DNA of 64,000 nucleotides from Mesaphorura yosii (taxonomy: Eukaryota; Arthropoda; Collembola; Poduromorpha; Tullbergiidae). The translations under genes and the position numbers were made by a program. This document shows positions 54,601 to 64,000 of the stretch, piece by piece. Location: contig WIXG01000030.1 of NCBI GenBank assembly GCA_009869945.1, positions 62,001 through 126,000 of the forward strand. Reading direction: 5' to 3'. The first letter of the stretch is position 1. Each line of letters opens with the position of its first letter. The notes beneath the pieces are model-generated. The model saw only the letters and a program-made list of their open reading frames with translations. It was not told the DNA's origin and did no database searches.

Positions 54601-57600
54601 CGACATTTTGACCACGGAAAACGGTTTGTTCTGTTCCGTCGATTTAACATGCTGTTAGCCGTCGTAGCCACTGCTTCACGCATTTCAATCCACGTCCTCA
54701 TAAAACAAAACAATCACAAACCATAGCACGAATATGTACAACTACTGATCACCGAAAAACTGTAGACTCGTGCACTCCGCAAGTGAAAGTGCACAGCAAG
54801 GGCAATTTCGTGTTTGAAAGAAAGACAGTTCATAAAATATCTACTGTGCTCATTCATCTCAATAAATGTCATCATTTCTCCTTGACTTGGTGCACACTGC
54901 CACGCTACAATATGTAATCTCTTATTTTCATCATCGCTCAGCCCGATTCGCTGCTTCACTTTTTTAATATATTGTGATTTGCAGTGTCTCCTCTGCGCCC
55001 GCGGAGTATCATACACACTTTCACGCGTATGATATACGTAATAATAATCACAATTATGTCAGTTTGGAACGTATTGGACAAAGATTTATGTTTGCGCACA
55101 TTTTTAGGAGCGCATCTTCTCTGCCGTAATGACAAAGTCAACATCAGCGAGCAAATTCCTTTATACGCCAAAAAGCTATAAATCGTGAATAACGCATTTG
55201 TGAACAACTTTCTTATCCTTTGACTTTGCGTGACCTTAGTGGCCTATGGTCCCGTATTTGATTAAGCGAAAACCCGCTTTCACCTTTAGAAAGTGACGAC
55301 TTTAAGTCGACAATTACACAAATACGTATCAATTTTAGAATGACGACTTTGTAGGAGTCAAGACTCGTTTGACCGTTTCTTGGCGTCGATGCCCTGGTGT
55401 GGAATTCCATTTTCTAACGAAGAACAGAGGCTTCAGCTGACAGCAGCACTGAACGTCCGTGCCATCCCAACACTTGTGATTTTGGATTCCGAGGACAATA
55501 TCATAACCACCGAGGGTCGGGAGCGCCTGAACGATGATTTGGACGCGATTGTAAGCGAATCTGCCTCCGCAAACGAAAAACATGACATAAAAGAGAGCAT
55601 TCACTTCTATCTCAGCCCCGCCGATGTTTCTTTGCAGGATTTTCCATGGCCCGCAAAACTAATTGAAGAATTGCACGACCGGCATTCCTCAATCCTGAAC
55701 CATTATTCGGTGTGCCTGATTTATTTCATAGGTAAACTCTAAAGCATTCACTATTTGCCATTTGGGGAAGAACAAATTGGTAGGAGAGAAAAAAGGGAAA
55801 AAATCTAATTAGAAAAACCACAGTGTTTATACATACAAATGTGGTTGGTTGTGCGCAGCGATATCTTTGGAATACGAAATAGGATCTTTTGTTTTCTGTG
55901 GAAGCGATTTATTCAAGCCACTCTTCAAAGGAGTCGATAACACAGCAGTTCCACGAATGTCTCCCATCGTTGATTCGTATTACCTCAGGAGCACGAAACG
56001 AACACTCCAAACTTGTACAATTGTTTGATGCAGTGTGCCTTAGTCATCCTTAATTGAAATTTGAAATGCTGCAGCTTCTTTTCCGTTGCGAGTTGCAGTG
56101 TATTTCATATCAGACTCGATGATCATGATTTGAAAGATTATGACCGCAGCACATCCAACGAGAGAGCAACGAGCGTTGTAATTTAGGGAGGAAAAGTTGG
56201 AGCGCAGCGCAGAATGAATAGGTGGGACGAGGGAAACCTGCAAGGAACAAGTTTTTAAGCCTGGGTTGGTTCCATAAAATAAAATGGGTTGAAACAAAGT
56301 AGTAATATACATTCATTGAGTCGAGTAAATCTGTGGAGATGCTGAATGCAAGTCGTCGAGGTAAAGATAAGAAGCGAAACTGTGCTGAATGACAACATAA
56401 ATTGTAATGAAAGGAAGAAATATTCAAGAGGAGAGAAAGAAATTTTACTTTCCCTTTATTATTTCCCTTCCTAAATGCCTTCGCAGAGACTGAGCTAAGA
56501 TCCAAAGAAAGAAAGAGACTACTGCATTGCAACTGCAGTCACGACCAAATGATAAAGAGGAGAATGTGAAATGTAAGAAATGTAAAGGCATTTTTCAACT
56601 TTTAAGACTTGAAATAAATTAGTGAAACCCCGTGAATTACGGTGGTACGGATGAGCGTATGTGGAGTTGAAGATTGCGTATGCAGTTTATGGAAATGGGT
56701 TACTGTGAGGAAGCCTTGGAGCAATGGAGACTGAGAATGCGATAGCCTGCACACATGAGGAAACTTTGTCTGACTCAACATGAAGGCTGTGGAAGAGAAA
56801 GTCTCCTTCTTAATTGAATAAATTAATAATTCTTTATTAAATGAACACCTCCAATATTTCATAAGTCGTTTTGACTCATGTACAATCACAGTTGAAACAA
56901 GCAAATCAGGGAATACAAATCTTATCCAGTAGTACTAGAATATCAGTTGGCTCAGCATGCAAGACAAAGAAATAGAAAACTCTCTTCACAGACTAGGTTT
57001 AGCTTGACAAGTAATCCAAGGCAGAAGATACCCAAGCAAGCAAAGATTTATAAAAATATAAATAATTTGATTTTCAGGAGACATCGAAGCTGAGTATCAG
57101 AATGTGGAGACAATTTTGCAACCAGTTGCAACCCAGATTGCAGAATCTATTGTTGAAGAGGCACTCCAAGTCAAATTCTTCATCGCCACAGATGTAAGTC
57201 GTCCTAACATTATCTATGATTCAAATTGTATGATTCTGTACAATTCGGGGACGAAATTTCGATGCAAAAATTAAATTCAAAATTACGGCTCACCGCAAAC
57301 ATGCTATCACAGAAGTTTTGTTTCCTAATCTGATTATCTCATACTAACTACTTATCAGTTCCACTACGGTTCTACAATTATACTAGAGTAACATTATTTC
57401 CGAGTCTCGGCGAGTTAAAGCTTCATTTTGAATAGACATTGACTCCTTTCTCTTTTCGCAGTCTGAGCTGGCGGAATCCCTTCGATTGTTCGCTGACATG
57501 GAGGACTCAAGGTCCTACATTCTGATTCTGGACATTCCCAACTTTCGTTATTCACTCACATCAGCACTTCGCACTCACGATGAAAACCTGGTCCGAGACT

Positions 57601-62253: not shown

Positions 62254-62868
62254 ATGGCTTCACAAACTCAAGGAATTCAGCAGTTGCTTGCAGCGGAGAA
62301 AAGAGCAGCTGAAAAGGTTGCTGACGCTCGTAAACGTAAGCCAAGCTTGCCGATATTAAAGTGACCACTGTCAGCAGAAATTTCCACGAACTAGCACTCA
62401 AAGGGTATGAATAATTAACTAATTGTGTGTCATTAAATGTAGGCAAGGCGAGAAGATTGAAGCAAGCCAAAGAAGAGGCTCAAGCTGATATCGAGAAATA
62501 CAGACAGGAACGTGAAAAGGGCTTCAAGGACTTCGAAGCCAAGGTAAGGCCAAAGACTTTAACCTGTCTTGGCACTCTCTTGGAATTATTCCAACAAACT
62601 GAGGATTAACTGAATTTATTCTAGCACATGGGTTCCAAAGAAGATATCGCAACAAAGATCGATGGAGAAGCTACTAGGAAGATTGAAGATATGAAACAAC
62701 AAGTAGCTCAGAATAAAGAAAAGGTAAGCATAGCGCCGCGGTCAAATTTCCAAACCAAAACTGATTCACTAAATTCACTAAATTGCGCTTTGGCTGCAGG
62801 TTATATCCAGACTCTTGGAACTAGTTTGTGATATCAAGCCAGAACTTCACAAGAATTATCGTCAATAG
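62254..62868 (+). CDS. ATP6V1G: V-type proton ATPase subunit G
   Basis: Subunit G is part of the peripheral stalk of the V1 sector, where it pairs with subunit E and holds the ATPase ring against rotation while protons are pumped into lysosomes, endosomes and other acidic compartments. Exons: 62254-62335, 62443-62543, 62625-62723, 62800-62868, giving 116 residues, the normal family length. The N-terminus [20 protein letters not shown] is the family signature, followed by a long charged helix ([17 protein letters not shown]) and [11 protein letters not shown] at about residues 59-69. The C-terminus, [15 protein letters not shown], resembles animal proteins. Introns are 107, 81 and 76 bases with good GTAAG donors. 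The start is fixed by the signature. Residues 1-60 match animal versions closely. Confidence 0.97.
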
Positions 62869-63002: not shown

Positions 63003-63008
63003 TTTATT
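63003..63008 (-). promoter_or_regulatory. likely poly(A) signal of lysA
   Basis: The minus strand reads AATAAA 42 bases after the lysA stop codon. The implied lysA transcript end is only tens of bases from that of the convergent V-ATPase G gene. Confidence 0.6.
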
Positions 63009-63049: not shown

Positions 63050-64000
63050 TTAGTGTATTTTTGAAATCAAGTCATCAAATTGTTCTCGGTCTCGAATGAA
63101 TTTGTAATTCTCGCCAGTTACTAGAATCTATTGAGAAATGTATGAACATTTAGCTCAGGAATAAGAACCGATTGTGAAAGCAACATACTTCAGCTGGTTT
63201 AGGCCTCATATTATAATTCGATCCCATGGAAGCACCATAAGCACCACAGTCCATTATGGCTAAATACTCTGAGTCAGCAGGCAGTGGCACACCTTTTCCT
63301 AGAAAATCAGCTGACTCGCACACTGGGCCCACCACGTCGAAACTTGTCCACTAGAAAAATGAGCAATAATCTATCCCAAACAACTTTGACGTTTTCGATA
63401 TTTATGACTCGTTTAACCGACCTCCTTTCTGTACTTGAGCTTGGTGGGAAGAATCTGATGAGCGGCTCCGTATAAAGGTGGGCGTATGAGCTCTGTCATC
63501 GCGGCGTCTACAACGGCGTAACTTTTGTTCCCAACCTTCTTTCGACCAAGTACTTTAGTGACGATAATTCCTGCGTTTCCAACCTTCGGAGCAAAACAGA
63601 ATGTCAAAATCTGAAGGTGTACTGAAATACATAACAAGAGAAGAGACCAGCGATCGTCCTGGCTCAATGAGAAGTTTCTTGTTGGGTGGAAGGAAGTTCA
63701 CAATTGTTTTAATGAATTCATCCACACCCGGGGTTCCTCCCTGGTGCATCGTGTCTTCAGAATGTGCCTGAACGTCTCCATTTTTGAAGCCAGGGATCTG
63801 CTTTTTGTAGTCAATGCAGATTCCTCCACCGACGTCGTACAGTTCGATTTCTATGCCTTTGTCGTCTAGCATTTTCGTTGCAGAAGACAGAAAATTTCCC
63901 ATGTACGTGTACACACTCGGGTCACGAATACTACTGCCCAGGTGGCAGTGCAGTCCAATGATTTGAATGTTCTCGCAAAGAGTTAGGATCTTATCAACTT
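63050..64000 (-). CDS. lysA: diaminopimelate decarboxylase, 5' part beyond window
   Basis: LysA is a PLP-dependent fold-type III decarboxylase that turns meso-diaminopimelate into L-lysine, the last step of the bacterial and plant route. The visible C-terminal 250 residues (of about 420 in the family) lie on exons 63648->64000, 63422-63583, 63189-63350 and 63050-63127. Numbered from the window edge, the conserved sites are HCHLGS (17-22), the phosphate-binding GGG (57-59), EPGR (112-115), VDAAMTELIRP (142-152), GPVCES with the catalytic Cys (179-184), GAYG (207-210) and SNYNMRPKPAE (215-225). All expected active-site motifs are intact. CESADF and SNYN separate it from ornithine decarboxylase, which has a different Cys motif. 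There is an insert of about 20 residues after GGG. Two of the three visible introns have GTC donors (GTCTCT, GTCGGT). The missing start lies to the right. Confidence 0.92.

Follow-up and report, generated by a model that had tools for sequence, protein, structure and literature searches.

The analysed window of 64 kb (bases 62001-126000 of contig C30, 372,122 bases long, in an assembly of 93.0 Mb and 1127 contigs) ends within a minus-strand gene for diaminopimelate decarboxylase (lysA), only the 3' half of which lies inside it, at 63050-64000. This half had been described beforehand as four exons with short introns, and the spliced model indeed places four minus-strand exons here: exon 5 (63648-64000 for the part in the window; the exon begins outside, at C30:126114, 114 bases past the window end), exon 6 (63422-63583), exon 7 (63189-63350, which carries the Cys-Glu-Ser and GAYG motifs) and exon 8 (63050-63127, ending in TAA). 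The introns between them, 5 (63584-63647), 6 (63351-63421) and 7 (63128-63188), measure 64, 71 and 61 bases. Extending the contig past the window, as the preliminary description had proposed, recovered exons 1 to 4 and with them the whole frame of 456 aa. The full gene runs from C30:126940 down to 125050 on the minus strand, with 456 codons from ATG to TAA, eight exons (116, 117, 159, 110, 467, 162, 162 and 78 bases, in order) and seven introns (85, 94, 76, 69, 64, 71 and 61 bases). All seven introns are GT-AG and the frame is complete, as expected of the intact, spliced gene claimed earlier, and there is no stop or frame break that would mark a decayed copy. The donors of introns 5 (gtctct) and 6 (gtcggt) are weak. 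For the end of exon 5 there is an alternative in-frame donor, gttatg, with which the protein would be four residues longer, and the junction chosen is our best guess between the two. A candidate poly(A) signal, AATAAA, is found 41 bases past the stop (63003-63008, minus strand). The GC content is 28-39% in the introns and 45.7% in the coding sequence (GC3 46.4%), to be compared with 43.9-49.9% (GC3 29.6-60.5%) in five neighbouring or host reading frames.

The gene is embedded in the host chromosome, as shown by its introns and by eukaryotic genes on both sides. Convergent with it is the gene of V-ATPase subunit G (62254-62868, plus strand; Pfam PF03179, 6.8e-38), whose four exons were read by eye; the distance of 181 bases reported previously is exactly that between the two stop codons, tail to tail. 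Further along this side are two exons of CDC45 (PF02724; 59560-60813, minus strand), which score 30.4 and 28.1 bits, each alone below the curated cut-off of 34. On the other side of lysA, a Pyr_redox_2 exon exceeds its cut-off with 74.4 bits, and a PH-domain-like exon falls short of its own with 20.3 bits. Symbiont or contaminant DNA as the source of lysA was rejected in view of the introns and the eukaryotic neighbours. The LysA family is unexpected in animals, which could make one think of a foreign gene joined to animal DNA by contamination or misassembly. Such an artefact, already disfavoured, is hardly credible for a gene with seven short GT-AG introns that sits between eukaryotic genes in the interior of a 372-kb contig. 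Elsewhere in the window, a Thioredoxin_8 exon (55344-55739, plus strand) is presumably nucleoredoxin-like, and Rfam and tRNA scans of the 64 kb gave no matches.

The host itself had been called an animal and can be named more exactly as an arthropod. At least 40 Wnt-domain matches (several in a stretch of about 32 kb on contig C565) and at least 66 matches to the cuticle domain Chitin_bind_4 were found in the genome, and neither domain matched in any of 14 prokaryote controls; we take such numbers of Chitin_bind_4 to mark arthropods. A search of the assembly for COX1 gave no match. We conclude that this arthropod has a genuine LysA gene, complete and spliced.

LysA is a PLP enzyme with an alanine-racemase-like fold that catalyses the final step of lysine synthesis in bacteria and plants. 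The protein encoded in the window scored 341.9 bits against the NCBIfam model for lysA (TIGR01048, E 3.9e-102), above the equivalog cut-off of 297.9, and only 146.6 bits against the model for D-ornithine/D-lysine decarboxylase (DokD), whose cut-off is 700. It contains the PLP-binding barrel (PF02784, 120.4 bits) and the C-terminal sheet domain (PF00278, 72.1 bits), and its best relatives of solved structure are all diaminopimelate decarboxylases, from Aquifex (2p3e, 239.2 bits) and Arabidopsis (6n2a and 6n2f, 238.8 and 235.9 bits). The earlier identification as LysA, and not as an ornithine or arginine decarboxylase, is thereby upheld, and the ornithine decarboxylase identity was dismissed on the TIGR01048 score. 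Three other matches to the LysA Pfam domains in the host genome (C860, C1002 and C471) were judged by eye to be ornithine-decarboxylase-like, from motifs that we assume to be telling.

The preliminary description had also listed the PLP-site and catalytic motifs. In an alignment with 36 other LysA rows the residues of the PLP lysine, the GGG loop, EPGR, R-P-x-x-Y, CES/CET and GAYG are all present, and we take them to have the corresponding roles in the active site. Of the 21 positions checked, 18 are invariant in all 36 rows and the window protein matches every one of these, including Lys82, His225, Gly263-265, Glu318, Gly320, Arg321, Arg357, Tyr361, Cys388, Glu389 and Tyr415. The remaining positions vary among the LysA rows themselves: position 223 widely, 319 (Pro in 34/36) and 390 (Ser in 30/36, Thr in 6/36). 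Judged by these features, the window lysA is probably functional.

Relatives of the gene in prokaryotes are all distant. The best bacterial match by tblastn was 38% identical among the best 80 loci listed; 81 of 84 genomes from the phylum of a Poribacteria record matched (best 43%), as did 381 of 387 from the phylum of a Verrucomicrobia record (best 40% among the matches listed). Plasmid and phage records gave 252 and 19 matches, all below 60% identity, with best rows of 36.3% and 33.2%, respectively, among the matches listed. A recent bacterial donor was rejected, the best prokaryotic identity being 43% among the bacterial, plasmid and phage matches listed. Among viral contigs no relatives were confirmed, either for this gene or for the second LysA-family gene described below.

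The phylogenetic trees, made of prokaryotes with Arabidopsis as the only eukaryote, placed the window lysA beside, and not inside, a clade of plants and Poribacteria. In a quick tree of 84 rows it joined two Arabidopsis and four Poribacteria rows with an SH-aLRT of 100, a result that carried a warning of long branches meeting at this very join. A more careful tree of 40 rows recovered the window lysA with Arabidopsis and the four Poribacteria at 100/99, and so did a larger tree with the subfamily of the second gene as outgroup (100/99), in which the Poribacteria rows were the nearest. By path length in the 40-row tree, Aquificota and other bacteria were the nearest (3.15-3.18), with Arabidopsis at 3.56. 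The 40-row and the larger tree took 37 and 22 of the 80 kept bacterial loci and one of the two Arabidopsis chains (eukaryotic rows came from solved structures only); the larger one also included 3 of 12 loci from the Poribacteria phylum, 6 of 20 from the Verrucomicrobia phylum and 5 from the plasmid collection. The end branch of the window lysA is long in all three (2.5, 1.35 and 1.47 changes per column in the 84-row, 40-row and larger tree), and long-branch attraction may contribute to its position. A clade of the window lysA with 28 other bacterial sequences, a group named after the tree had been seen, was rejected by the AU test (p-AU 0.009). The wording of the protein had been considered at least as plant-like as bacterial, a view borne out by the grouping with Arabidopsis and Poribacteria and by this test.

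A way to look at the same question is to dissect the individual positions that separate plant-type rows (at least 5/6 with the same letter) from other bacteria (at least 70%). The window protein has the plant letter at 20 and the bacterial letter at 20, positions where it has a third letter being left uncounted, and such an even split is what one would expect of a lineage that diverged close to the base of the plant-type clade. The Poribacteria LysA (L016, L018, L019, L041, L098, L099 and L104) themselves reach 64-65% identity with Arabidopsis DAPDC1, and Arabidopsis appeared among the Poribacteria rows in the larger tree (98/88) and beside them in the 40-row tree (83/64). This hints that plant lysA derives from, or shares its source with, the Poribacteria type.

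The seven introns and the deep position next to plant LysA are also what one would find if the window gene were an old eukaryotic lysA, inherited vertically and lost from most animals. Candidates for other remnants exist, since the available text of two papers mentions lysAC in choanoflagellates (PMC7971027) and, in an anthozoan gene list, the diaminopimelate decarboxylase Seriatopora_29443 (PMC4878875). However, the authors of the coral list give their gene as acquired from chlorophyll-c algae, the choanoflagellate lysAC was flagged by alien index though it fell short of the orthology filter (dapF is given there as a transfer), and many losses would be required. We regard vertical inheritance as rather improbable; an old horizontal transfer seems the likelier history, and the window lysA is probably of foreign origin.

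The preliminary description had suggested looking for dapF and dapB elsewhere in the genome, and neither turned up. A whole-genome search gave no match to diaminopimelate epimerase DapF (PF01678; 9/14 controls matched), to the C-terminal domain of DapB (PF05173; 11/14) or to aspartate kinase (TIGR00657; 14/14), in a profile search that runs exon by exon and that genes split into tiny exons could escape. NLPC_P60 peptidases, which we take to be one family that frees diaminopimelate peptides, were likewise not found in the genome (9/14 controls matched). Since aspartate kinase, DapB and DapF were not found, the likely substrate of LysA is meso-diaminopimelate obtained ready-made, from food or microbes. 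Salvage of this compound is the simplest reading, with diet or a symbiont as its presumed source.

Two other explanations have to be weighed at this point. The first is that LysA finishes a lysine pathway shared with a symbiont, which would make the diaminopimelate and leave the last step to the host. The three partner families unmatched in the host genome would fit, and there is a precedent in whiteflies, backed in the available text of the reports by RNAi and complementation (PMC8659303, PMC4607527), but the whitefly has dapB and dapF as well and neither was found here; we consider a shared pathway unlikely, if a serious contender. The second is that LysA has changed its specificity and has come to decarboxylate a different amino acid. 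The long branch would agree with such a change, as would the lack of matches to three pathway partners, which leaves no known in-house substrate, but a score above the LysA equivalog cut-off and the retention of all 18 invariant positions (of 21 checked) argue against it, and we think a switch of substrate improbable, somewhat more so than a pathway shared with a symbiont.

A genome search for the two Pfam domains revealed a second LysA-family gene on another contig (C255, 115,995 bases), at C255:99938-101616 on the plus strand. It encodes 432 aa in six exons separated by five GT-AG introns of 67-88 bases. A TM2 gene flanks it on one side and a sodium/hydrogen exchanger gene on the other, further open frames lying in between. 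The nearest relative found, 46.1% identical, is a Ruminococcus albus protein annotated as diaminopimelate decarboxylase, with which it clusters at 100/100 together with two plasmid-collection proteins (Agrobacterium and Nonomuraea). Its score against TIGR01048, 268.1 bits, is below the equivalog cut-off of 297.9, and in this protein and its subfamily a His replaces the GAYG tyrosine and the His225 position is changed. We therefore describe it as a LysA-family gene of a Ruminococcus-type subfamily whose substrate is only putative. This subfamily is distant from that of the window lysA, so that the animal carries two members of the LysA family from separate branches of it.

The surroundings of this second subfamily offered two further observations. 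Directly beside the C255 gene is a single open frame of 824 aa (L097:650-3121) with a P-loop GTPase-like start, which by eye looks like an AIG1/GIMAP-type GTPase. The Agrobacterium plasmid gene of the same subfamily (L131) adjoins a 2OG-Fe(II) oxygenase, a context which suggests, for part of this subfamily, a role in some specialised pathway instead of ordinary lysine synthesis.

Lysine is an essential amino acid for animals, normally obtained from the diet. On balance we favour, with fair confidence, the reading in which the window gene encodes a working meso-diaminopimelate decarboxylase, anciently acquired, that salvages microbial diaminopimelate to lysine. An arthropod ancestor would have acquired lysA long ago from a non-animal source whose LysA was near the plant/Poribacteria type, and after the transfer the gene would have gained introns and a host-like base composition. 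The enzyme would now take up meso-diaminopimelate derived from bacterial peptidoglycan (of the gut, food or symbionts) and convert it to L-lysine. Expression, activity, the source of the substrate and the direction and date of the transfer are what we infer from the genome. If true, a stand-alone decarboxylase would let an animal draw lysine from microbes while lacking the rest of the pathway. An origin near the plant/Poribacteria type would enlarge the range of sources from which metabolic genes are known to have been transferred. More speculatively, the two LysA-family genes, from different sources, might form a dedicated route of cell-wall diaminopimelate salvage and allow a symbiont-free partial escape from dietary lysine, an idea that we put forward as possible though doubtful.

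Among known systems the closest is the whitefly Bemisia tabaci, whose lysA, according to the available text of the reports, has acquired introns, rescued an E. coli lysA knockout and upon silencing led to lower lysine (PMC8659303), and groups with Planctomycetes (PMC4607527). Both are arthropod nuclear genes with introns, but the window lysA goes with plants and Poribacteria, a comparison made by published description and not by sequence. As far as those reports describe, the whitefly also has dapB and dapF, with no match for either in this genome, and its second lysA copy is a truncated duplicate, whereas here the second gene is of another subfamily. The two chloroplast enzymes of Arabidopsis, DAPDC1 and 2 (PDB 6n2a and 6n2f), have the family and the wider Poribacteria clade in common with the window lysA. 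DAPDC1 is 41% identical to the window protein and shares 20 plant-type letters with it, but is far nearer to Poribacteria (64%) than to the window protein, which has the bacterial letter at 20 other positions of this kind. Seriatopora_29443 is likewise an animal LysA, though from a cnidarian and likened here only through its description in a gene list (PMC4878875).

Other reports, in their available text, are more remote. Diaminopimelate decarboxylase is among the putative bacterial-origin genes of some trypanosomatids (PMC3990616), and a crab transcriptome contains a LYSA transcript named with the words "thetaiotaomicron diaminopimelate decarboxylase" (PMC12070891), which may be of the second LysA type or come from gut bacteria. 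A survey of animal gene loss names other lysine genes, with diaminopimelate unmentioned in the available part (PMC4339202). In a literature search mostly without subscription papers, we recognised no report of an arthropod with two spliced genes of the LysA family. A spliced, working arthropod lysA is already known from the whitefly; what distinguishes the present case is that the partner genes were not found, the clade from which the gene appears to come and its pairing with a second member of the family.
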